From: Anaerolinea thermophila
Lineage (GTDB): Bacteria; Chloroflexota; Anaerolineae; Anaerolineales; Anaerolineaceae
Direction of reading: 5' to 3'
Assembly: GCF_020723905.1 (NCBI RefSeq)
Contig: NZ_DYHZ01000001.1
Span: 1 to 64,000, forward strand
Length of the DNA stretch: 64,000 bases
In this document: positions 3,236 to 42,582 of the stretch, one piece after another
Position numbering within the stretch: position 1 is the first letter of the stretch
How the letters are laid out: each line of letters starts with the position of its first letter
Notes under the pieces: model-generated
What the model saw: the letters and a program-made list of their open reading frames with translations, nothing else
Database searches by the model: none
Told to the model about the DNA's origin: nothing
Made by a program: the position numbers and the translations under genes

Positions 3236-3264
3236 ATTATATCACAACTCCCGGGCTATAGCAA
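3236..3264 (-). promoter_or_regulatory. Sigma70-type promoter for rpsL-rpsG-fusA-tuf
   Basis: On the minus strand TTGCTA (3264-3259) and a perfect TATAAT (3241-3236) are separated by exactly 17 bases. The -35 overlaps the rpoB stop codon (3258-3256). Transcription would start near 3229, giving a leader of about 127 bases before rpsL. Seen by eye, not experimentally supported. Confidence 0.65.
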
Positions 3265-9958: not shown

Positions 9959-9990
9959 GGTTCGTGCTATAATTTTGTTATGCACGAACC
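9959..9990 (+). promoter_or_regulatory. Extended -10 promoter flanked by a perfect inverted repeat
   Basis: TGCTATAAT (9965-9973) is an extended -10 that ends six bases before the ATG at 9980, so transcription should begin at or beside the start codon. Nine-base perfect arms GGTTCGTGC (9959-9967) and GCACGAACC (9982-9990) flank the -10 and the start codon. The left arm is outside the predicted transcript, so the repeat is more likely a DNA operator than an RNA hairpin. Confidence 0.55.
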
Positions 9991-12941: not shown

Positions 12942-13754
12942 TTACAGTTCCTTATCAGTTCTCCGATGACGCCAGAACAAAATCGCACCAGACACTACAG
13001 CCACCGCCAGCATAATCACCTGGTTTGCGTTGAGCGTCCCCCACGGCGCTGGATCCAGACGTAAAAATTCCAGAGCAAAACGCCCAATGCCATAAATCAT
13101 CGCATACATCAAGAACACATCCCAGGTCTTGAGTTTTCCTGCAAAACGCCTTGATGCCCAGAGCAAGAAGCCCATGTTCAACAGGTTCCAGAGAAACTCA
13201 TACAGGAACAGAGGATGATAATACTCCACACTGGCATACTGGGGCAAGCGATGAGCAGGGTCTATATAAAGTTTCCATGGCAAATTTGTGGGTGCGCCAT
13301 ACAGTTCCTGGTTGAAATAATTTCCCCACCGTCCAATAGCCTGGGCAAGAGCCAGACCGGGAGCAATTGCATCTGCCCAGACTCCCAGCGGGAATTTCTT
13401 GCTCCGCGAATAAATCCATACGGCAATTAAACCGCCAATGACCGCGCCCGGGATTCCCAATCCGCCCCGGCGCAGATTCAGCATATCCAGAGGGTGAGTG
13501 AAATAATATGCTGTGGTGATACCCTGTTCCACCATCGAGGCTGGCGGAAGAAGCACATGCCACAACCTCGCCCCAATGATGCCACCGATCAATGCAATGG
13601 GCAGTAAATCCCAAGCCAGATCGGGGTTTTCTCCATACCGTCTGGCTTCACGGCTGGCAAGCCAGGTTGCCGCTACAGCACCCAAAACAATCAAAATACC
13701 ATAGTAATAAATCTTAAACGTACCAATCAAAATCCCGTCGAACTGGATAGACAT
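12942..13754 (-). CDS. lgt: Prolipoprotein diacylglyceryl transferase
   Basis: A 270-residue inner-membrane enzyme that transfers diacylglycerol from phosphatidylglycerol to the lipobox cysteine of prolipoproteins, the first step of lipoprotein maturation. About seven membrane helices are evident. The family signature GRWGNYFNQELYG (about residues 142-154) carries the essential Arg and Asn. It follows a CDP-alcohol phosphatidyltransferase by 15 bases, a fitting pairing since Lgt consumes phosphatidylglycerol. The signal peptidase lspA that completes the pathway is also in this window (27762-28289). Confidence 0.96.
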   Translation of the reverse strand: MSIQFDGILIGTFKIYYYGILIVLGAVAATWLASREARRYGENPDLAWDLLPIALIGGIIGARLWHVLLPPASMVEQGITTAYYFTHPLDMLNLRRGGLGIPGAVIGGLIAVWIYSRSKKFPLGVWADAIAPGLALAQAIGRWGNYFNQELYGAPTNLPWKLYIDPAHRLPQYASVEYYHPLFLYEFLWNLLNMGFLLWASRRFAGKLKTWDVFLMYAMIYGIGRFALEFLRLDPAPWGTLNANQVIMLAVAVVSGAILFWRHRRTDKEL

Positions 13755-13769
13755 ATGGCTTTTTCCTCC

Positions 13770-14402
13770 TCATCCTTCTCGTTTTACGGTTGTGCGTTCA
13801 TACGCCTGTTTACGCACGTGCCATATTCGTTGTAAGGCAGTGATGTTTCCAAAAAAGGCAATCAATGCCAGCGAGATTATCGGTTGATTGAAAATCAACC
13901 CCGGCACCAGCACAAGAAAACGTTCGACCCGCGTGAACAATCCAATCTTGGTTTCAAACCCCACCGACTGCGCCCTGGCACGAATGTAAGACACCAGCAC
14001 CGAACCCGCTGCAGCGAGATAGACCATCAACACCCCCAGCCAGAGGTCCTCCCTTAAAAAATAAATCAGCAAGCCAAGGAAAATGACCAGTTCAGAGTAG
14101 CGGTCGGTCACCGAGTCCACAAAAGCGCCAAATTCACTGGACAAACCGCGCAATCGCGCCATCGTTCCATCCAAAGCGTCAATCGGTCCCATCAGTAAAA
14201 TCACCACACCGCCCGCGGGAATGTGCCCCAGCGCCAGAAGCACTGCCCCAAAGACATTCCCCACCAGTCCCAGGATGGTCATAGTATTGGGCATAATGCC
14301 AAGGCGATTGAAGAACATCGCCACTGGTTCGAGCACATTCTTGAAAGTCTTACGGAGAAAATCGGTGAAGGTCACTGGTTCTTTCCTGACAATCTGTTCC
14401 AC
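13770..14402 (-). CDS. CDP-alcohol phosphatidyltransferase
   Basis: A 210-residue membrane enzyme joining a CDP-activated lipid to an alcohol, as in phosphatidylglycerol-phosphate or phosphatidylinositol-phosphate synthesis. The complete catalytic signature D-x2-D-G-x2-A-R-x8-G-x3-D-x3-D is visible as DALDGTMAR followed by FGAFVDSVTD (about residues 92-118). Several hydrophobic helices surround it. It starts with GTG after TGAGGTG. Which alcohol is used cannot be told from the sequence; actinobacterial PgsA1-like and PgsA enzymes look alike here. Its own promoter lies just upstream. Confidence 0.9.
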   Translation of the reverse strand: MEQIVRKEPVTFTDFLRKTFKNVLEPVAMFFNRLGIMPNTMTILGLVGNVFGAVLLALGHIPAGGVVILLMGPIDALDGTMARLRGLSSEFGAFVDSVTDRYSELVIFLGLLIYFLREDLWLGVLMVYLAAAGSVLVSYIRARAQSVGFETKIGLFTRVERFLVLVPGLIFNQPIISLALIAFFGNITALQRIWHVRKQAYERTTVKREG

Positions 14403-14456
14403 AGTTTCACCTCAATGGGAAAGATAAACATATACCGATAACCGGCACTGCGCCTT

Positions 14457-14485
14457 ATGCTATCTTACCCATGAGGAACTGTCAA
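14457..14485 (-). promoter_or_regulatory. Sigma70-type promoter for the phosphatidyltransferase-lgt-ABC group
   Basis: A perfect TTGACA (14485-14480 on the minus strand) is 17 bases from TAGCAT (14462-14457), a four-of-six -10. The -35 overlaps the stop codon of ftsK (14484-14482), like the str promoter at the end of rpoB. Distance to the GTG start is about 55 bases. Confidence 0.6.
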
Positions 14486-16638
14486 GAACCCTGTTCGTTT
14501 TCCTCGCCATCTTCCGGCAAGGGTGGCAAAAGTACCTCGCGGTCCTTTCCACCCCCTTGTGAGGGACCCACAATTTCCATCTCTTCCATGAGATCAATCA
14601 AACGGGCGGCGCGGGGATATCCAATGCGCATCCGCCGCTGGAGCAAAGAAGCACTGGCACGCCGGGCTTGCCGGACAATACGAATGGCTTCTTCCAGCAA
14701 AGCATCGCCTTCTTCCTCAGCGGCATTGACCAGAAACTCCTCCCATGGCACCGGCACTGGTTCTTCAGAAGCAGGCACTTGCTTTTGCCAGTAAGCGATG
14801 ATGCGCTCCACCTCTTGATCGGCAACCATGACCCCCTGGGCACGCTGGGGAGTACCCACTTCAGGGTTCAGGAAGAGCATATCCCCCTTTCCAAGCAGGG
14901 TTTCAGCGCCTACCACATCCAGAATGACACGCGAATCCACCGACGATGCCACGCTGAAGGCAATACGGGCAGGGAAGTTGGCTTTAATTAAACCGGTAAT
15001 CACATCTGTTGAAGGGCGCTGTGTGGCTACCACCAGATGAATGCCAATGGCACGCGCTTTCTGAGCCAGACGCACCAGCGCCGGCTCGGTGTGTTCTGGA
15101 GCCGTCATCATTAGATCTGCCAGTTCATCCACAACCACCACAATTCTCGGCAGGGGAGATTGTCCGCGTTTCTCTGCACGGCGGTTATAGGTTTCCAGAT
15201 CACGAGCGCGGGCTTGCTCGAGAACTTTGTAACGATTCTCCATCTCTGCCACTGCCCACTGTAGAACAGCCACCATGCGCTCCATTTGAGTCTCAACCTT
15301 GCCCAGCAAATGCGGCAACCCATTAAAACGAGAAAGTTCTACCATTTTGGGATCCAGCAGTACCAGACGCAAGCGTTCCGGGGTGTTATTCATCACAAGG
15401 CAGGTCACAATGGCAGACACACACACCGATTTTCCGGAACCGGTTGTGCCTGCAATCAATAAATGGGGCATTCGCGCCAGGTCCGCCACCACTGCCTGAC
15501 CCGAAACATCCTTACCCAGTGCCAGCGCCAGAGGAGAATTCAGGCGCTGGAAGGCTTCATCCTGCATCAGAGAACGCAACCGGACCACGGTATTACGAGG
15601 GTTGGGCACTTCAATGCCCACATAGGAACGTCCCGGCACAGGGGCTTCGATTCGTAAACGCTCTGCTGAAAGCGCCATGGCAAGGTCGCGCTGTAAGGCA
15701 GAGATTTGAGCGACCCTCACCTTCATATGGGTGACTTCGCCATCAGCCCCCGTCCGCTCCACATAGCCCGGCTCCACCGCATACTGGGTAATGGTGGGGC
15801 CCACCCGATAGCCAACCACCTTTACCGGCAATCCAAACTCTGCGAGCACCTGCTCGATACGCAAACCGGTCTCAATAATGGTATCTTCGTCAGGGGCGGC
15901 GGATTGTTCCTCCACCAGCAAATCCAGAGGAGGTAAGCGGGAATCGCGCTGTGCCTGTGAAAGGGGTTTATCGGGTTCACTTTCTTCAGAAGGGCGGGTT
16001 GAGGTTGACGACAAAGGGCTCTGGACAGCCACTGTTGCTGTAGAAGTGCTCATCGCATCCAGCCATTTTAAAAGTGCCTGAAAACCCCATCCTAAAAGTC
16101 CACTGCCATATGATAACAACACCAGCAGGGCAAACAGCAGGACAATGGTAATCCACGGATAGGGGAAAGCCACCTCCAGCAAACTCGCCAGCCCCCATCC
16201 GATCACCCCACCATCTTTCCCGCTTTCTGCACGGGTGAGATCCATTCCTCCAAATACTGCCAGTAAGGCTAAAAGGAAAAAAGCACTGGCTTCCAGAGCC
16301 AGTGTACGCCCAAGAGAAATATGGGGAAATTCCTGAAAGTAATGGCGGAAGCAAAGCAACCCCAGCAGGATGAAAACTGCCACCATCCCCCAGGCGAGCC
16401 AGCCAAAAGCCATGCGGATACTACCCACCCAGGCATCCAGGAGGACACCCCGAGACCATCCTGCCAGACCAAGGAAGGTCATAAAAGCCCATGCCATTAA
16501 AAAGATACCCAGAATATCCCATCCAAAACGGCGAAAACGCCCCCACCACTCCATACCAGTTGTGGTTGTGGTTTCTTCGCCAGTTGGAGGAGATCCTGGA
16601 GATACCCCTGTGGGCTTGCGTTTTGGTTCTAACTTCAT
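14482..16638 (-). CDS. ftsK: FtsK/SpoIIIE-type DNA translocase
   Basis: A 718-residue septal DNA pump that clears chromosomes from the division plane. About four or five membrane helices lie within residues 30-200, then a linker, then the motor domain with Walker A AGTTGSGKSVCV (about 415) and Walker B RIVVVVDELADLMM. The C-terminal winged-helix gamma domain (RRMRIGYPRAARLIDLMEEM) would read KOPS/SRS-like sequences. Length fits SpoIIIE rather than the longer E. coli FtsK. The ATG overlaps the stop of the S1-domain gene by four bases. Confidence 0.96.
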   Translation of the reverse strand: MKLEPKRKPTGVSPGSPPTGEETTTTTGMEWWGRFRRFGWDILGIFLMAWAFMTFLGLAGWSRGVLLDAWVGSIRMAFGWLAWGMVAVFILLGLLCFRHYFQEFPHISLGRTLALEASAFFLLALLAVFGGMDLTRAESGKDGGVIGWGLASLLEVAFPYPWITIVLLFALLVLLSYGSGLLGWGFQALLKWLDAMSTSTATVAVQSPLSSTSTRPSEESEPDKPLSQAQRDSRLPPLDLLVEEQSAAPDEDTIIETGLRIEQVLAEFGLPVKVVGYRVGPTITQYAVEPGYVERTGADGEVTHMKVRVAQISALQRDLAMALSAERLRIEAPVPGRSYVGIEVPNPRNTVVRLRSLMQDEAFQRLNSPLALALGKDVSGQAVVADLARMPHLLIAGTTGSGKSVCVSAIVTCLVMNNTPERLRLVLLDPKMVELSRFNGLPHLLGKVETQMERMVAVLQWAVAEMENRYKVLEQARARDLETYNRRAEKRGQSPLPRIVVVVDELADLMMTAPEHTEPALVRLAQKARAIGIHLVVATQRPSTDVITGLIKANFPARIAFSVASSVDSRVILDVVGAETLLGKGDMLFLNPEVGTPQRAQGVMVADQEVERIIAYWQKQVPASEEPVPVPWEEFLVNAAEEEGDALLEEAIRIVRQARRASASLLQRRMRIGYPRAARLIDLMEEMEIVGPSQGGGKDREVLLPPLPEDGEENEQGS

Positions 16639-17582
16639 TCGATTCGAACCAGCCCTAAGCCAAGCCGGCGACGCTCGGCATCCAGATGCAGAATGCGCAC
16701 CTGCACCTTTTGCCCAACCGTCATCACCTTTTCAATGTCCTTTACCCCATCGGGCAGGGACATGGTCGAGATGTGGATCAACCCTTCCACCCCTTCTTTC
16801 AGGCGGGCAAAGGCACCAAACCGCATGATCGCGGTCACTTCGGCTTCCACGACATCACCGGGACGGTAAATTTGGGGCAAAGCCTCCCAGGGATTGGGAC
16901 AAAGCCGCTTGAGGCTGAGCGCTACCCTTCCATTTTCAGCCGAAACCGTTAGCACCAGGGCGCGCACCGGATCGCCCACCCGCAGAATATCAGTCGGGTG
17001 TTGCACCCTCCCCCACGACAGTTCGGAGACATGAATTAGCCCTTCCAGACCACCCAAATCCACAAAAGCGCCAAAGTCGGTGACGTTCGTCACAGTTCCA
17101 TTGACAATTTCGCCCGCGCGCAGGGTGCTGAAAAGTTGCCGGCGTTTCCCCTCGCCAGCCAGCGCCGCGCGTTCTGAAAGGACAATCCTCTCAGACTGCA
17201 TCTCACATTCAATGACCTTGAGGGAAAGAATCCGCCCCACGTAATTTGCCAGGCTCTGCCTGCGTTGTTCCTCGTCGCCGGGGACACAGGGCATCTCCAC
17301 CAGATGAGACACCGGTACAAACCCTTGAATATCCTCCCCGCGCACCAAGAGCCCGCCGCGATTGAAGCCGTACACCTCCAGTTTGACAACTTCGTCGTTT
17401 TCCAGATACTGGCGTGCTTTTGCCCAGTTGACACTGGCAGAGATTCCCGTGGATTTTGCTCCGGAAGACCTGAGCAGATTTTCTCCATAGACCTGCTCAT
17501 CCGCAAGCACCGAAGCCCACCAGCCTTCATCCATAGGCATCTCCACTTCCTCAATACTGGCAACTGATCGCCTTACCGCCAT
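16635..17582 (-). CDS. S1-domain RNA-binding protein (ribosomal protein S1-like)
   Basis: A 315-residue protein with three consecutive S1 (OB-fold) domains: about 65-155 (ENDEVVKLEVYGFNRGG), 163-235 (GEIVNGTVTNVTDFGAFVD) and 245-315 (GDVVEAEVTAIMRFGAFAR). Each carries the GFxVPVSHL or GLIHVSEL strand typical of RNA contact. Three- and four-domain S1 proteins serve as ribosomal S1 equivalents in many Gram-positive and green-branch bacteria. GGAGG precedes the ATG. Coupled to ftsK by a four-base overlap, which has no obvious functional logic. A tex-like regulator is less likely because the Tex helical core is missing. Confidence 0.88.
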   Translation of the reverse strand: MAVRRSVASIEEVEMPMDEGWWASVLADEQVYGENLLRSSGAKSTGISASVNWAKARQYLENDEVVKLEVYGFNRGGLLVRGEDIQGFVPVSHLVEMPCVPGDEEQRRQSLANYVGRILSLKVIECEMQSERIVLSERAALAGEGKRRQLFSTLRAGEIVNGTVTNVTDFGAFVDLGGLEGLIHVSELSWGRVQHPTDILRVGDPVRALVLTVSAENGRVALSLKRLCPNPWEALPQIYRPGDVVEAEVTAIMRFGAFARLKEGVEGLIHISTMSLPDGVKDIEKVMTVGQKVQVRILHLDAERRRLGLGLVRIE

Positions 17583-17638: not shown

Positions 17639-19555
17639 CTATTCCTGCTTCTGGTTGGCTCCCTCCCGAGCATCCATTTCCATTTCCAGAATGGCTTTTG
17701 CGACGGCTTCAATGGCAACCCGCTGTTTCCGATAAAGATCTGCTTCTGACATGGCTAAACGCATCGCAATATCACGCACCTTGCGCCCTTCAACAAACTT
17801 CATTTCCAGAATATTATACAATATCCATTCACCGGTGAACTTTCTTTCGCCCTCGGGTTTTACCTGATCAATGGCTTGCCGGAGCACCGCGCGGAGTGCG
17901 TTGGCTTGATTGCCATTATGTTCACGCAGGGCTTCCTGAACAACCCTGTACTTCATCAGGGGATTATTGAGCAATTTAGGACCACCCCAGTAATGCGAAA
18001 GCGCTTCCCGCACCCATGTCGCCACATCTTCAGGGGCTTCTGGGACCTCCGCTTGCATGAATTCCTGACGATCATACTGACCTGCAGTGCGAAGACGCTG
18101 AATAAAATCTGCCTGAGGAGTAAGGGCTTCCAGAGCGGAAAAAATCCGTTCCTGGAGTTTACGGTCGCGCAGTGCCATCGCCGCCCGATCAATCAACATC
18201 CAGATGGTTTCATCCGGCTCAAGCGCTACCTCTTTGCCTTCCACGCCGCTCACCCCAATGAACCCCAGCAGAGGGCTTTCTTCTCCATTATGAAGCGGGA
18301 AAAGCCAGTCTCCCTCCCAGATGAAATAGCGGGCTTCTCGGGCTTTTTCCCACTCCGGATAAATCTTCAGAGGAGATTGCGTTGGATCCTCCAGACGTTC
18401 AAAACGGGTTTTGCCCTGTGAAAGAATGAACTGGGAGCCGGATTCCAGACCGACCAGATAGGCTCCTTCCGCCTGAGTGCGGTCCATCAAAGCGACCAGA
18501 ATCATCTCCAGGAACTGACGCAGGTCGTTCCGCGTTACCAGTCTCTCTTCCAGACGCCGTAAAATTTCCAGTTCTTCACGATCGTTTCCTGCAAAGAGAA
18601 TGCGTTCTCCCAAAGGCGACAGCAGAGTAATGAGATACTCCAGAATCAAAATGGTGGCAACCATTGCAACCGGCACAAGGATGCTGGCGTTGTACCCAAG
18701 CACATCACCACCGCGCCGGATTAATGTCACCACGCCCAGCGTTGCCGATGCAGTAAAGGGACCTCGCATCAGCCACTTGAACAGGCGCGCCTTGACCACC
18801 CGGTCCGGCATCATCACCCCGAAGAAAGCCACAACATACGCCATAACCACCAGCAAGGTTCCTACCAGAGCATTGACCAGTGCCGCCAAGCCCCAGAACC
18901 AGATGGGATGCCGCAAGGGAAAATCAGGGTTATAAGGGAGGAAGGGGAATACCCCTAGAATTAACGCTACCGAACTGAATACCAGATAGAACATGCGGCG
19001 CCGACTGGCAGAGAGCGTCGATCGCCGCATGGCACGAACCAGTAAACTGATACCAATCCCACAAAGGGTGATCAGGTAAACGAGAAAAACATTGGTCAGA
19101 GGGGTGGGCTGAAAATGGCTGATTTTCCCCTCCACACTGACCACCGGACCAATCAGCCAGCCAAATGGAATGGACAATAAGAAAAGGAAAGAGATAAAAT
19201 ACGCCAGACGCGAAAGGAAACGCCTTCGCCCCCGGCTGGGCTGTCCCGTGGTGGCTAACACGGCATCCGCAAAATGCAGGTAGGTGGCAGGTAGAAAAAC
19301 CACTCCTGCCCACTGCACCTGCAACCAGAACATTTGGTCCGCACTTGAAGAGGCAATGTTACCCATTGATTCGGCAGTAAACGCCACCACCACGCATACC
19401 AGAATCAAGGCAAAAGAGCGAACCACTCGATTGAACAAATTGAACGCCAGAGCATAGAGCAAAAGCGCAAAGGCTGTTATGGCAATCCCGGCAGTGAAAA
19501 TATCACTGAGCGCTCGAAGGATACCCTGTAGTGCAATCATGCCGTCATTCTGCAT
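17639..19555 (-). CDS. Membrane sensor: 7TM N-terminus, GAF-like middle, HTH-like C-terminus
   Basis: A 638-residue protein I cannot name. Residues about 10-330 hold seven to nine membrane helices in the style of the N-terminal 7TM region of histidine kinases. Residues about 345-480 look like a GAF domain (LRQFLEMILVALMDRTQAEGAYLV; later LIDRAAMALRDRKLQERIF). There is no kinase, GGDEF or HD domain. The C-terminal about 130 residues are helical and end with VRDIAMRLAMSEADLYRKQR, which resembles a sigma-region-4-type helix-turn-helix. It could be a membrane-tethered transcription regulator that senses a small ligand. It lies between the GNAT and S1 genes in one minus-strand run. Confidence 0.6.
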   Translation of the reverse strand: MQNDGMIALQGILRALSDIFTAGIAITAFALLLYALAFNLFNRVVRSFALILVCVVVAFTAESMGNIASSSADQMFWLQVQWAGVVFLPATYLHFADAVLATTGQPSRGRRRFLSRLAYFISFLFLLSIPFGWLIGPVVSVEGKISHFQPTPLTNVFLVYLITLCGIGISLLVRAMRRSTLSASRRRMFYLVFSSVALILGVFPFLPYNPDFPLRHPIWFWGLAALVNALVGTLLVVMAYVVAFFGVMMPDRVVKARLFKWLMRGPFTASATLGVVTLIRRGGDVLGYNASILVPVAMVATILILEYLITLLSPLGERILFAGNDREELEILRRLEERLVTRNDLRQFLEMILVALMDRTQAEGAYLVGLESGSQFILSQGKTRFERLEDPTQSPLKIYPEWEKAREARYFIWEGDWLFPLHNGEESPLLGFIGVSGVEGKEVALEPDETIWMLIDRAAMALRDRKLQERIFSALEALTPQADFIQRLRTAGQYDRQEFMQAEVPEAPEDVATWVREALSHYWGGPKLLNNPLMKYRVVQEALREHNGNQANALRAVLRQAIDQVKPEGERKFTGEWILYNILEMKFVEGRKVRDIAMRLAMSEADLYRKQRVAIEAVAKAILEMEMDAREGANQKQE

Positions 19556-19579: not shown

Positions 19580-20122
19580 TCAACGCAAAGATTGCGCAAA
19601 GAATAAGGCAATGTCTTGATTCGCAAAGTAAGCGTCGCTGAAACCCGAAAATTCATAGCCAAGTTTTTTTGCCAGTTGAATGGCAGGATAATTCTTGGAC
19701 TGCATTTCCAGCATAATCCGGCGATATCTCCGCTCGAGGGCATAATCCTGCACCGCAATCAAAAGCGCAGTGCCAATGCCCTCACGGCGCAAATCGTGAC
19801 GCACGATTAAATCTTTTACCCACAAATTGCCCGATGTGATTTCCAGCGCCAGACGAGCAAACCCTACCGGTATACTGGAAAGGCTGGCGGTGAGAAAGAT
19901 ATCTTTGTCGAGCCAGCCTTCCTGAAAAATATCCTCCAGAGAACGGGGGTATTCAACCAGAACTTCCCGCGGAAGACGCACCTCACGAAAACGCACCTGA
20001 ATCTGCTCTTCCTCCCCACCCCGATCCATTTGCCATACTTTCACAGTATAGTAAGAGGGAACAATCTGGCTGAGCGCCGGGAGATCCGATGATACGGCAG
20101 GACGAATGGCTACTTGTGGCAT
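19580..20122 (-). CDS. GNAT family N-acetyltransferase
   Basis: A 180-residue acetyl-CoA-dependent acetyltransferase. The A-motif region reads VRHDLRREGIGTALLIAVQDYALERRYRRI (given here as the R-x-x-G-I-G-T loop and following helix, about residues 113-140), and the B-motif helix includes NYPAIQLAKKLGYEFSGF. Substrate unknown. It ends 24 bases before the membrane sensor and starts nine bases after the 227-residue membrane protein, so all are probably one transcript. Confidence 0.85.
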   Translation of the reverse strand: MPQVAIRPAVSSDLPALSQIVPSYYTVKVWQMDRGGEEEQIQVRFREVRLPREVLVEYPRSLEDIFQEGWLDKDIFLTASLSSIPVGFARLALEITSGNLWVKDLIVRHDLRREGIGTALLIAVQDYALERRYRRIMLEMQSKNYPAIQLAKKLGYEFSGFSDAYFANQDIALFFAQSLR

Positions 20123-21703: not shown

Positions 21704-21971
21704 GAATGCTTCTCCTTGAACGCTTTATCCGCATGAAGAATGTGTGGGTTCTCCCCTGCTGGATTATATCAGAGTTTAAAGTGGTCTGAAGAACGCACCA
21801 GCAGGGAGGTGTCATGAATTTCTGGTTATAAGAATCTATTCCTTACAAAACTGAAATGAAGCCGAAATGTTACTGTAATTGTGTTTCAACACAGGGTATG
21901 CTAGACTTCTAACAGACGATGTTATCAACCGTTCCGCCACTTCATCTCATTGCAGTTTGAGTTCTTTCCTC
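21704..21971. other. Divergent intergenic region between PNP and HD-GYP genes
   Basis: These 268 bases separate divergent genes. Beside the PNP promoter they hold, on the plus strand, TGTGTTTCAACACA (21878-21891), a short palindrome directly upstream of TATGCT (21897-21902), a possible -10 for the HD-GYP/GGDEF pair. No -35 at proper spacing and no ribosome binding site before the ATG at 21972 were seen. No RNA gene was recognised. Confidence 0.4.
21754..21806 (-). promoter_or_regulatory. Extended -10 promoter for the PNP gene inside an inverted repeat
   Basis: On the minus strand TGATATAAT (extended -10, 21771-21763) lies about 60 bases upstream of the PNP start. Nine-base perfect inverted arms CCCTGCTGG (21754-21762) and CCAGCAGGG (21798-21806) flank it at a 35-base spacing. 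No convincing -35 is present. The arms could bind one regulator on both sides of the promoter. Confidence 0.45.
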
Positions 21972-24161
21972 ATGAAACCATCCTCCCTGATTTCTTCTCC
22001 CCTCATCACCGGAAAACCGAAAGAGACCGTTCACGCGGAGGTAGAAGGCATTGATGCCGGACATGAGAACAGTGAAGAAGTGCGGCAATTAAAAGCCAGA
22101 ATCCAGGCTCTGGAACAACAATTACTTCTCCAGCGCATTCAGAATGAACAACTGCTCAGGCTCAACCAGTTCAATCAGCAACTGGAAACGATGGAGGATA
22201 TTCCTGTCGAAGCACAGCTGGCGGCAAATGTGCTTCATCAAACCCTGCATGCCTCTTTATGCATGGTGCTGGGATTTTCCCCCGCTTCCCAACGCCTGCA
22301 ACTGCTTGCTGTAGCAGGTCCAGATGCCACGCTGATTCCTCCCGGATTTCAACACAGCATCACCCGCGGTTTGATTGGGCGCGCCATTCGCTCCCGCAAA
22401 ACGCTGTTACGGCACCATCAAACCGAAGAGCCGCCTTTTAAACTCATTCCCCAGCTGTACCCATCTCAACTGGTCTGCCCTCTGCTGGATAACGGCAATC
22501 TGGAGGGGGTGCTGTTTATTGCCTCTCGGGAGATGGAATATTTTTCCCCACAGGACATCCCCTTCGTAGAAGCCCTGGGAATGAGGCTGACCAGCGCATG
22601 GTCGTATCAACGCTACCGCAACACGCTGGCAGACCTTGTACAGTCGGCGGCACTACTCACATCCACATTGAACTTAAACCAGTTAATGGAGAAAATTGCC
22701 GAAATTGCCCGCCAGAGCACGTATGCACACGCGGGAGTCATTGCGGTGCGTTACGAAGAAACCTGGCGCTGGGCACATGCGGGATCCATAGGCGGAACTG
22801 CCCTGAGCGAAACCTTACAGGAAATCGTCAATCATGTCTATCAAACGGGTATAGCCATCCGGGTTCGTGACATCCGCCGAGACCCGCGTACCAGCCATCT
22901 GGATCTGCGCGATCCCACCCTGCGTTCCATGCTGGTATCTCCCATCCTGCGGGAAAGTCAGCCTCTCGGGGTCATTTTGACCATTGGGAAAAAGCAGGGA
23001 CTGAATTTTAATGAACAGGATGAGTTTTTGCTGGACTTAATTGGTACACACGCCGCTGTAGCCATCGAGCGCAGTTTTCTGGATGAAGAACTGCGTTCAT
23101 CGTTGATGGTTACGCAAATGCTTCATGAACTGAGCATGCGGATCGCTGAGTCGGACGATTTGAACGCAGCGGCGCAGGTCATTGCTCTCACGGCTTACCG
23201 CATGTTCCAGGCAAGCGCCTGCGGCATGGTGCTGTATGGATTGGACGGTGAGATGGAGATCAGTTTACAGTATCCATCGGACGATACGGACATTTCCCAT
23301 CCCATGGAAGTTATTCAGCAAGCCATGCAATCCCGCCAGATTTCCACCCAACGGGTGAACGAATGGGTTTCGCTGATGGCATTTCCGCTCCAGACCCACC
23401 GGCGCTGTTACGGCGCGTTGTGGCTGGAATTGATGGAAAGTTCCAGCAGGAACAATCACTATCCTGTTGATGAGGTGAGATTGCTTATCAATCAAGCCAG
23501 CATTGCACTGGAGCGATCGATATTACTGGCAGAAACGCGTCGCCAGGCGCATGAACTGGCACAAGCCTTCGATCAACTGGAACGCTCATACGACCAGACA
23601 CTTCTGGCACTGATGAACTCACTGGACGCCCGCGATCACGAAACCGAACGTCACGTTTTACGGGTGCGCGAGATTGCCCTGAGAATCGCTCAGGAAATGG
23701 GTGTATCTCCTGCGGATCAAAAAGCCCTGGAAAGGGGAGCACTTTTACACGATATCGGTAAAATAGGTATTAGTGACACCATTCTTCACAAACCCGACTC
23801 ATTAAATGAGCATGAATGGCGTCTCATGCGGGAACATCCACTTATTGGGGCGCGCATCATCCGGGAGATTCCATTCCTCAGCAATGCCATCCCCGTCATT
23901 GAATATCACCATGAGCGCTGGGATGGAAGCGGTTATCCGAAGGGACTGAAAGGAGAAGAGATTCCCCTGCTGGCGCGAATTTTCTCGGTTGCTGACGTGC
24001 TGGATGCTCTGCTCTCCGATCGCCCTTATCGGAAGCGTATTAACGTCGAAGATGCTCTTCAATACATTCGATCGCAATCCGGAAAGCAGTTTGATCCGGC
24101 GGTTGTCAATGCTTTGATGCGTTGCCTGCAAAAGAATACTCTGCATCTACTCGAAGCATGA
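21972..24161 (+). CDS. GAF-repeat HD-GYP cyclic-di-GMP phosphodiesterase
   Basis: About 729 residues. A coiled-coil near residues 25-60 (VRQLKARIQALEQQLLLQRI) leads into three GAF-like domains (about 65-205, 225-375 and 380-525). The C-terminal HD-GYP domain (about 540-720) keeps HDIGKIGI and HHERWDGSGYPKGL, so the metal-binding and GYP residues needed to hydrolyse c-di-GMP are intact. No membrane helix is seen, so it is a cytosolic sensor-effector. The ATG at 21972 is preferred to a TTG-started extension of 31 residues that has no family features. Its stop overlaps the ATG of the GGDEF gene (ATGA). Confidence 0.9.
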   Translation: MKPSSLISSPLITGKPKETVHAEVEGIDAGHENSEEVRQLKARIQALEQQLLLQRIQNEQLLRLNQFNQQLETMEDIPVEAQLAANVLHQTLHASLCMVLGFSPASQRLQLLAVAGPDATLIPPGFQHSITRGLIGRAIRSRKTLLRHHQTEEPPFKLIPQLYPSQLVCPLLDNGNLEGVLFIASREMEYFSPQDIPFVEALGMRLTSAWSYQRYRNTLADLVQSAALLTSTLNLNQLMEKIAEIARQSTYAHAGVIAVRYEETWRWAHAGSIGGTALSETLQEIVNHVYQTGIAIRVRDIRRDPRTSHLDLRDPTLRSMLVSPILRESQPLGVILTIGKKQGLNFNEQDEFLLDLIGTHAAVAIERSFLDEELRSSLMVTQMLHELSMRIAESDDLNAAAQVIALTAYRMFQASACGMVLYGLDGEMEISLQYPSDDTDISHPMEVIQQAMQSRQISTQRVNEWVSLMAFPLQTHRRCYGALWLELMESSSRNNHYPVDEVRLLINQASIALERSILLAETRRQAHELAQAFDQLERSYDQTLLALMNSLDARDHETERHVLRVREIALRIAQEMGVSPADQKALERGALLHDIGKIGISDTILHKPDSLNEHEWRLMREHPLIGARIIREIPFLSNAIPVIEYHHERWDGSGYPKGLKGEEIPLLARIFSVADVLDALLSDRPYRKRINVEDALQYIRSQSGKQFDPAVVNALMRCLQKNTLHLLEA

Positions 24162-25735
24162 GCCATTTTCTAAGCCGTATTGTACGAGTACCCGAAACCG
24201 GCAGAGACCAGCGCCTGTTATTGCCCATTCTTCTGGGCAGCGCCGGGATTGCGTTTTTTTTGTTTGTTTACGGGTATGTAGAAGGTACATCTATCACCCA
24301 ACGCTGGATCAATGTCCTGAGCGGGTTAGCCCTGTTCGCTTATTTCCTGATTCAAAATCTTTTCCTGAAAACCGACTGGCACCAAAACCCTCTCACTGGC
24401 GTGGGGGTGTTCCTTTTTCACGTGGCTTTTGTGCTCTGGTTCACCCTGATTGAACCGTACAGTATTCGCTGGATTCAACTGGCAGTTGCCACTCTCTTCT
24501 TTATCAACATCACTATTTTGATGGGGCGGTGGTTTGCTTATGCCGTTCTGGGGATGGTGATCTTCCTGCTTTCCCCGCTGTTCCCAATCAACGTATTTCC
24601 CCAAATTTATATCACCTGGGACCGCCCTTTGAGTTTAATTTTATCCGCCACAATCATCAATGAGACATTCCACTGGATGAAAAAACGGATCGAGAAGCAG
24701 GTGGAAAGGCTCGAAATTATCAATCAAATGACCCGCAGTCTGGCATTTTCCATCGAGCCTTCTCAGGTCACTTCGTTGATGAGCAGTGCCATTCAATCGG
24801 CGCTCAACGCCGATACCTACTATATTGGATTCCTGGAAAACAGTCATCTGCGCCTGGTTTTGCTCTATGACGACGGCGAATTTTTTGAAGATCAACAGGT
24901 GGAACTCGAAAACACCTTTTCAGGCTGGGTGGTCATCAACCAGCGTTCTTTGCTGGTAAAGGACATAGACAAAGAAGCCGCCCGGCTGGGAATTACCCTG
25001 AAAAGCATCGGTAAGCCGGAACGGAGCCGTTCCTGGATGGGAACCCCGTTACAAACCCATGAGAAACTTTACGGCATGGTAGCGGTGGCTTCATATCAGG
25101 TCAATGCTTTCAATGATAGCGATCTGGAATTGCTAGAATCGTTTGCCCAGCAGGCAGCCATTTCACTGGAAAATGCCTTCCATCATCAGGAAGTTGAAAC
25201 GCGATCCATGCAGGACAGCCTGACCTCCGCATTGAACCACGGAGCATTCCTGCAAAAACTCACCGAAGAATGTCAGAAAGCCTTACGAGGCGGTTATCCG
25301 CTCAGTTTAATCATGCTGGATATTGATCATTTCAAGGAATACAACGACCGATACGGGCATCTTGCAGGTGATCAGGTGTTGATCGAAATCACCCAATATA
25401 TTCAACGATACCTGAAAAGCACCGACTGGGTGGGACGCTGGGGCGGCGAGGAATTTGCCGTCATTTTACCGAACGCCACCATTCTCCAGGCATGGGGAGT
25501 AGCCCGCCGCATCCAGAAATCTTTGACGCGCATGGAATTAAAAGATCGAGAAGGGAATCCCATCCCCGCCCCCACCATCAGCCAGGGAATTGCCTGCTTC
25601 CCCATGGAAGCGAGTGAAATCTACGCGCTGATTGACCTTGCCGACCAGCGCCTGTATCAGGCAAAAAGCCGCGGACGGGATCAAATCGAAACGCCGTTAC
25701 CCGTATCCGAAATGGATGAAGAGGTACAACAATAA
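24158..25735 (+). CDS. Membrane GAF-GGDEF diguanylate cyclase
   Basis: A 525-residue protein with about six membrane helices (residues 20-170), a short coiled linker, a GAF domain (about 195-345) and a GGDEF domain (about 360-510). The active site reads GGEEF, which is competent in many cyclases, and the metal-binding LDIDHFKEYND motif is present. The inhibitory I-site position before it reads KSTD instead of RxxD, so product inhibition is probably lost or weak. The ATG at 24158 overlaps the stop of the HD-GYP gene and replaces an upstream TTG. The pair makes and degrades the same messenger under one promoter. Confidence 0.9.
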   Translation: MSHFLSRIVRVPETGRDQRLLLPILLGSAGIAFFLFVYGYVEGTSITQRWINVLSGLALFAYFLIQNLFLKTDWHQNPLTGVGVFLFHVAFVLWFTLIEPYSIRWIQLAVATLFFINITILMGRWFAYAVLGMVIFLLSPLFPINVFPQIYITWDRPLSLILSATIINETFHWMKKRIEKQVERLEIINQMTRSLAFSIEPSQVTSLMSSAIQSALNADTYYIGFLENSHLRLVLLYDDGEFFEDQQVELENTFSGWVVINQRSLLVKDIDKEAARLGITLKSIGKPERSRSWMGTPLQTHEKLYGMVAVASYQVNAFNDSDLELLESFAQQAAISLENAFHHQEVETRSMQDSLTSALNHGAFLQKLTEECQKALRGGYPLSLIMLDIDHFKEYNDRYGHLAGDQVLIEITQYIQRYLKSTDWVGRWGGEEFAVILPNATILQAWGVARRIQKSLTRMELKDREGNPIPAPTISQGIACFPMEASEIYALIDLADQRLYQAKSRGRDQIETPLPVSEMDEEVQQ

Positions 25736-37826: not shown

Positions 37827-37835
37827 ATTATACCA
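37827..37835 (-). promoter_or_regulatory. Extended -10 promoter upstream of mreB
   Basis: On the minus strand TGGTATAAT (37835-37827) is a perfect extended -10, about 56 bases upstream of the mreB TTG. No good -35 is seen at 16-18 bases. It likely drives the mre-min-rod run, whose gaps are all under 50 bases. The other half of this divergent region belongs to the hydrogenase genes. Confidence 0.55.
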
Positions 37836-42573: not shown

Positions 42574-42582
42574 TGGTATAAT
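42574..42582 (+). promoter_or_regulatory. Extended -10 promoter for prfA
   Basis: TGGTATAAT lies about 46 bases upstream of the prfA ATG, in the 74-base gap after hoxW. It is the same nonamer as before mreB. No clear -35 was found at 16-18 bases. Confidence 0.5.

Follow-up and report, generated by a model that had tools for sequence, protein, structure and literature searches.

How does a membrane sensor that carries no output enzyme pass on what it senses? This question is raised by a gene in a stretch of Anaerolinea thermophila DNA of 64,000 nucleotides, which we analysed as a whole and refer to as the window. The original prediction, made from the letters alone, described a possible membrane-bound transcription regulator in which seven membrane helices and a GAF-like middle are followed by a tail resembling the helix-turn-helix (HTH) of sigma factor region 4. 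We confirmed the open reading frame, which lies on the minus strand and encodes 638 amino acids (Table 1). Sequence comparison and structure modelling together suggest that the protein is a membrane-anchored one-component transcription regulator, a reading that we consider fairly likely and in which we infer DNA binding from fold and conservation.

Table 1. Features of the gene, its predicted product and their surroundings; positions are those of the window.
Feature	Position	Strand	Basis or remark
Whole gene, 638 aa (sensor, GAF-like domain, long helix, sigma-region-4-like tail)	17639..19555	-	Open reading frame, ATG start
Predicted membrane region, residues 1-320, nine membrane-length helices, N-out/C-in	18596..19555	-	Model helices, hydropathy, mean loop charges (25 aligned sequences)
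HisKA_7TM match, residues 25-206	18938..19483	-	Pfam PF16927, 37.1 bits against a cut-off of 28.6
GAF-like domain, residues 342-444	18224..18532	-	Model; Foldseek 3cit; GAF_2 in relatives, not in the window protein
Long helix, probable coiled coil, residues 445-490	18086..18223	-	Model
C-terminal all-helical domain, residues 508-637	17645..18034	-	Separate model; profile A2; invariant columns; other architectures
Sigma-region-4-like helix-turn-helix, residues 575-625	17681..17833	-	hhalign, fold matches
Start of putative recognition helix, residues 603-611 (SEADLYRKQ)	17723..17749	-	Invariant columns
GNAT acetyltransferase, usual upstream neighbour	19580..20122	-	Pfam
Downstream block: S1-domain protein, FtsK/SpoIIIE-like, PgsA-like, Lgt-like	12942..17582	-	S1 by Pfam; others by reading translations
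Extended -10 element TGATATAAT	21763..21771	-	Before the block's first gene (purine nucleoside phosphorylase (PNP)-like by reading, start 21703)
TGnTATAAT sites in the window	3236-3244 (-), 9965-9973 (+), 21763-21771 (-), 37827-37835 (-), 42574-42582 (+)		

Architecture of the window protein

The full-length protein was modelled with AlphaFold2 from an alignment of 26 sequences from the order (A1, window protein included), giving a mean pLDDT of 80 and a pTM of 0.56. In the model, the residues up to 320 form nine membrane-length helices; these are followed by an alpha/beta domain (about residues 342-440), a long helix spanning 445-490 and, at 508-637, the helical tail. HisKA_7TM was the only domain that Pfam placed above its cut-off in the window protein, and 20 of the 25 aligned sequences matched it at E<=0.01; this match and the nine helices of the model bear out a membrane-bound sensor. 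The predicted 7TM region holds as far as the family match goes, but the protein probably spans the membrane nine times, not seven, as judged from the model helices, hydropathy and loop charge, on which the N-out/C-in topology is also based. Over the ten loops, lysine and arginine averaged 0.4, 2.2, 0.7, 3.8, 1.0, 4.9, 0.4, 4.0, 0.7 and 4.8 (25 aligned sequences), an alternation at all ten positions that places the N terminus outside and the GAF-like part and the tail inside.

Structure searches with the whole model returned mostly GPCR bundles in Foldseek (best E 0.0012, none below 0.001). Solved GPCRs also fill the VIA list, led by 8jmt (Z 16.4, 225 aligned, 4.3 A), in a comparison that covers mainly residues 4-265. 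We rejected a relationship to GPCRs: identity in the rows listed is 4-16% and the typical best Z of mostly helical models is 14, so we treat the likeness as that of a similar bundle only.

As predicted, no output enzyme was found: searches of the window protein against Pfam and NCBIfam up to E 1 gave no credible match to a kinase, GGDEF, phosphatase or other output enzyme, and none at all to HisKA or HATPase_c. A truncated histidine kinase that has lost its kinase was considered and rejected, as the frame is intact and the relatives are of about equal length. We likewise rejected identity as a sigma factor. Region 2 of sigma-70 binds core and the -10 element, and Sigma70_r2 had no match in the window protein up to E 1 (Pfam); without region 2, region 4 is all that the two have in common.

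The predicted GAF-like middle is weakly defined. Pfam GAF had no match at E<=1 in the window protein itself. GAF_2 was matched at E<=0.01 by 7 of the 25 aligned sequences (Pfam), and the GAF structure 3cit appeared at rank 34 of the 50 Foldseek rows listed for the whole model (E 0.007). Between the long helix and the tail, model confidence falls below a pLDDT of 50 over residues 478-506. The whole architecture is kept in full-length relatives, at 35-58% identity within the order and 27-40% in 18 more diverged sequences, which argues that it did not arise by chance.

Fold, conservation and relatives of the tail

The tail is the best conserved part of the protein. As a measure, we took how often the commonest residue occurs at each position in 30 orthologs (the window protein among them): the mean is 0.86 for residues 571-625, 0.72 for 511-570, 0.64-0.71 for the membrane region and 0.52 for 341-480. 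In an alignment of 25 diverged sequences (A3), 24 of the 32 invariant columns fall within residues 515-626. S603, E604, D606, Y608, R609, K610, Q611 and A614 are invariant there, and residues 603-611 are fixed at 7 of 9 positions in the diverged set and at 9 of 9 in the 26 sequences from the order. A WGGP motif (residues 523-526) is also invariant in the C-terminal domain. Residues 604-625 have a net charge of 0, and the acidic E604 and D606 are invariant; such features are not what one typically sees in a protein that binds DNA strongly.

We assembled a profile (A2) of 55 tails. One is the window protein's own, 38 belong to its other full-length relatives, and the remaining 16 come from further proteins, including two that resemble the window protein (L031 and L032, with membrane helices by eye and GAF matches below cut-off). 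Aligned with hhalign to region 4 of 10 sigma factors from the same genome, this profile scored 96% over 61 columns, with an E of 4.8e-9 that is valid for that single comparison. Against four LuxR-type HTHs the score was 87% (E 3.8e-6). As controls, the tail scored 0.3% against one unrelated GNAT, and sigma against LuxR gave 97.9% for scale. Since LuxR-type HTHs align too, the nearest HTH relative of the tail is not beyond doubt.

In the domain libraries, NCBIfam sigma70-ECF was matched at E<=0.01 by 27 of the 55 tails and, at the same threshold, the Pfam families matched were Sigma70_r4_2 (13/55), DUF1492 (12/55), Sigma70_r4 (9/55) and HTH_Tnp_1 (8/55). The best E-value for Sigma70_r4 was 1.9e-5 among the 55 tails, where one non-orthologous member may lie just over the cut-off, and 0.0015 among 25 full-length relatives. 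The window's own tail had no single match over a curated cut-off in Pfam or NCBIfam: it reached sigma70-ECF at E 0.00094-0.00097 alone and 0.004 within the whole protein, and UBA_HYPK at E 0.0024, each below cut-off. The weak Pfam names for the tail (UBA_HYPK, DUF87, Nterm_IS4, T3SS_needle_E and others) were rejected, each being below cut-off. Against PDB sequences, the tail profile matched the region-4 end of sigma-B 8x6g (E 0.007), Lin0861 (E 0.008) and sigma-F 1l0o (E 0.02).

Modelled separately, the tail reached a pLDDT of 95.6. The -35-binding domain of SigL took ranks 1-5 in Foldseek, at a best E of only 0.11, and region 4 of SigmaE on DNA took ranks 11 and 14 (2h27 is bound to -35 DNA), in a list that mixes other sigma factors with unrelated rows. 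VIA placed the phage Q21 antitermination factor on top (Z 8.2, 102 aligned, 4.7 A; further Q21 entries at 8.0 and 7.8), followed by SigL (Z 7.6, 73 aligned, 3.1 A), and most of the 50 rows listed are sigma factors by title; a Z of 7-8 sits in the range that this tool calls common. The leading fold matches are thus sigma region-4 domains, 2h27 included, and Q21, rather than a non-DNA-binding fold, and with the hhalign result they uphold the predicted sigma-region-4-like HTH. On profile and model evidence, the tail belongs to the region-4/LuxR-like HTH superfamily, nearer to region 4; single matches are weak, and it is their agreement that carries the case.

The tail also occurs in other settings. 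We ran Pfam on 20 other tail-bearing proteins, in two sets of ten. Six of the first ten have a C-terminal receiver; L043:1906-3759 is a permease-GAF-tail fusion (BPD_transp_2, sugar-permease-type), a possible transporter-regulator hybrid, and L044 reads tail-NB-ARC-TPR. Five of the second ten join the tail to an AAA or NB-ARC match and TPR repeats (the AAA match being at or below cut-off in L195 and L200), while L196 has TPR only, L192 a receiver, and L202 is HisKA_7TM-tail at 26.9 bits, under the cut-off; L203 and L204 gave no Pfam match at E 1e-5. Joined as it is to receiver, STAND-TPR and permease-GAF proteins, the tail appears to be a mobile output module.

In the STAND-type ATPase-TPR proteins (L044, L193, L195, L197, L198, L200) the tail domain is N-terminal. 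An unusual order is seen in L034, L035 and similar proteins of about 400 aa, in which the tail domain is followed by a stretch resembling a degenerate kinase ATPase (read by eye in L034 and L035, with no Pfam match) and then by a receiver; proteins of this size are present in several copies in some genomes.

Distribution, gene neighbours and promoters

The gene is single-copy in its own genome, where no second copy of the tail was found up to E 10. All 61 genomes of the nearest relatives (own included) matched, with nothing more than fragments in G003, G009 and G026 at least. Across the class, 148 of 150 genomes matched, four weakly (G101, G104, G121, G166) and about 144 at E<=1e-60 as read from the match table; the 103 good genomes of the class all have a match, a count that includes at least the weak G104. 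In the phylum, 81 of 301 genomes matched, comprising 38 in the class, 30 strong matches outside it and 13 weak ones. The strong matches outside the class fall into five families (f74, f75, f85, f111 and f114), which we suppose to be mainly class Chloroflexia. The tail profile was searched against the genomes of the phylum Chloroflexota, and the tail alone matched 152 of these 301, with up to at least 14 matches listed per genome. Plasmid and phage collections held no relatives of the window's tail at E 0.01.

The best 80 of 563 confirmed loci, a set biased towards close relatives, come from Anaerolinea, Levilinea, Longilinea, Thermanaerothrix and other Anaerolineae, with many titled Chloroflexi bacterium; one of these 80 (L090) is from Chloroflexus sp. 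The relative in Anaerolinea thermolimosa, a cultured species, is 56% identical. A contig of Levilinea saccharolytica (NZ_LGCM01000042.1) carries two equal-scoring copies (L104 and L105) on opposite strands about 50 kb apart, which represent either a recent inverted duplication or an assembly artefact.

In the window, the GNAT gene ends 24 bases upstream of the gene and the S1-domain gene lies downstream, all on the same strand, and the gene order of the downstream block was seen in a few diverse loci. The best 80 of the 563 loci encode GNAT (79/80), the membrane protein of the window's block (78/80), S1 (77/80), PNP-like (75/80), FtsK-like (58/80), PgsA-like (56/80) and Lgt-like (55/80) proteins, counts that record co-occurrence in the same locus, not adjacency, with many contigs ending early. 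Across 60 loci of greater diversity, the gene directly upstream on the same strand came from the GNAT cluster in 21 loci, from the CdsA cluster in 14 and from the FtsH cluster in 3; none of these stood upstream in the remaining 22, of which 2 are at a contig end. The cluster names GNAT, CdsA, FtsH and UppS come from a Pfam scan of one member of each. On a tree of 66 proteins, linkage to cdsA required 3 changes (at least 2 forced by well-supported branches) and linkage to GNAT 10; L190, a cdsA row, has a long branch and an unsure placement, and five of the 27 GNAT labels (L002, L007, L015, L020 and L022) were assumed from the 80-locus pattern.

These neighbours, ftsK, pgsA and lgt here and uppS-cdsA elsewhere, hint at the cell envelope. 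CdsA and PgsA perform successive steps in phosphatidylglycerol synthesis, which suggests envelope lipids, yet the blocks are housekeeping. That the protein watches the state of the membrane or envelope is a tentative guess from its gene neighbours, and one we would sooner doubt than adopt.

The neighbourhood also bears on two other explanations. Under regulated proteolysis, a signal would cut the tail from the membrane and so release a soluble regulator. The low-confidence, possibly flexible stretch ahead of the tail would suit such a cut, as would the upstream FtsH cluster, of whose three members the one scanned by Pfam matches FtsH/M41. Against it, the three loci form a single clade, and the succession of sensor, GAF-like domain and long helix looks like an allosteric chain, so we hold proteolysis to be quite improbable. 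A chromosome-membrane tether, in which the HTH holds many DNA sites at the membrane near the division machinery and has no role in transcription, would fit the near-universal presence in the class and the ftsK-like gene often found nearby. In a tether, though, the sensor-like membrane and GAF-like parts would be superfluous, and receiver and STAND proteins carry the tail as well; we give this explanation hardly any credence.

Other signalling genes are found close by. In the window, a GAF-GAF-HD-GYP-like protein is encoded beside a GAF-GGDEF protein (21879-25735, plus strand), divergent from the operon; the two are probably a c-di-GMP pair. Downstream of the gene in L134-L136 lie a short receiver (scanned by Pfam in L134), a protein of about 960 aa and a 419-531-aa protein of one linkage cluster, and a protease that is ClpP-like by eye, which suggests an added phosphorelay in that family.

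To find operators, we looked in 72 loci for words over-represented ahead of the first gene of the operon, with singly shuffled letters as the control. This search yielded no operator candidate and one strong word, TGnTATAAT, which 52 of the 72 loci, window included, carry in the 220 bases ahead of that gene. The whole genome holds 106 such sites versus 21 for the reversed pattern, which identifies the word as an extended -10 promoter, not an operator. The notion that it is special to the operon (54 of 90 sites in one bin, best 80 of 563 loci) is countered by the genome count, and extended -10 words apparently form a general promoter class in this genome. No -35 consensus was found over 45 extended -10 sites (40 elsewhere in the genome and 5 in the window), of which 4 had a 5-of-6 match to TTGACA versus 1.0 expected. 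Eight loci from outside the class (L130, L131, L133-L137 and L190) carry TGnTATAAT in front of the homologous gene itself, at a distance of 26-187 bases from its first possible start.

Sigma region 4 binds proteins (RNA polymerase, anti-sigma factors) as well as DNA, and the tail too may have a protein partner. It would then contact the beta flap of RNA polymerase, or a sigma or anti-sigma factor, either in place of DNA or in addition to it, and polymerase would be recruited to or held at the membrane. Its best whole-domain VIA alignment is to Q21, an antitermination factor in a loading complex, and an extended -10 class without a -35 consensus makes a missing region-4 contact at least conceivable. 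Yet this promoter class is general and not tied to the window gene, and invariant residues are densest in the HTH. We therefore regard a protein partner as unlikely. Far bolder, and very improbable in our estimate, is that the protein serves as a membrane-bound stand-in for sigma region 4 with polymerase at -35-less promoters, such that an envelope signal would set polymerase activity at housekeeping operons (ftsK-pgsA-lgt, uppS-cdsA) in Anaerolineae and related Chloroflexota families.

A candidate mechanism and its known counterparts

We favour direct DNA binding, by which the protein is probably a conserved switch controlling genes directly from the membrane, as sequence and model suggest. 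The HisKA_7TM-type membrane bundle would sense something in the membrane or outside, to which the GAF-like domain may add a cytoplasmic ligand. The long helix would relay the signal to the sigma-region-4-like HTH domains, which would pair as a dimer and bind DNA while the protein remains in the membrane.

If this is right, these proteins would be among the most widely kept signalling proteins of the whole class, acting without a partner regulator through an output domain that stays below standard domain-library thresholds in the family proteins scanned. The same domain is present in several copies per genome in some families, and knowing which DNA it targets would give access to gene regulation in a group that has been little studied. 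As a near-invariant case, the family would also bear on how a membrane-held regulator gets to its DNA. Membrane one-component regulators are already known; the novelty lies in a core family kept across the class, with a region-4-like tail under domain-library thresholds.

In the open-licence PMC literature, we recognised no paper describing this family. Its parts, in contrast, have counterparts. The window protein and the HisKA_7TM histidine kinases (PF16927) share a membrane sensor family, named in PMC6944256 and treated as a sensor domain of archaeal kinases in the portion of PMC5847659 used here. Unlike those kinases, the window protein lacks HisKA, HATPase_c and a receiver, ends in an HTH-like tail and has, in the model, two more membrane-length helices. 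With sigma-70 region 4 (SigL, SigmaE, WhiG; ECF) the tail has in common the HTH fold and alignable sequence; unlike sigma factors, the protein has no region 2 match, carries extra N-terminal tail helices with WGGP and is attached to a membrane sensor. Q21 gives the best whole-domain structural alignment to the tail, at 10-11% identity, and differs in being a phage protein without a sensor. A further likeness is to ChiS, which we take to be a membrane sensor. Its family's DNA-binding domain, as presented in the part of PMC8092284 drawn on, is a precedent for an HTH variant called cryptic, which we suppose to be unrelated to the window tail.

The closest counterparts in design are the transmembrane transcription regulators (TTRs). 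The original prediction held a one-component membrane sensor acting directly on DNA to be unusual at this size; membrane-bound regulators of this kind are, as such, not unusual: according to the sections consulted of a 2023 Pfam-based survey (PMC10269533), there are 50,302 TTRs in 9,673 genomes, of which 56% are single-pass and, in our reading of its sentence, 17% have two spans and 27% more than two, some up to 22. DNA-binding domains were detected there with Pfam models, and Chloroflexota are mentioned once in those sections, for hybrid types; a survey of that design would probably have missed the present family. Its TTRs are mostly single-pass, whereas the window protein has about nine predicted spans and a GAF-like domain, and they were found by Pfam DNA-binding models, none of which reaches its cut-off in the window protein. 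Like ToxR, CadC and TcpP, the window protein unites membrane spans and a domain of DNA-binding type in a single polypeptide, with no separate response regulator, combining a transmembrane region with a domain that belongs, remotely and through sigma region 4, to a DNA-binding superfamily.
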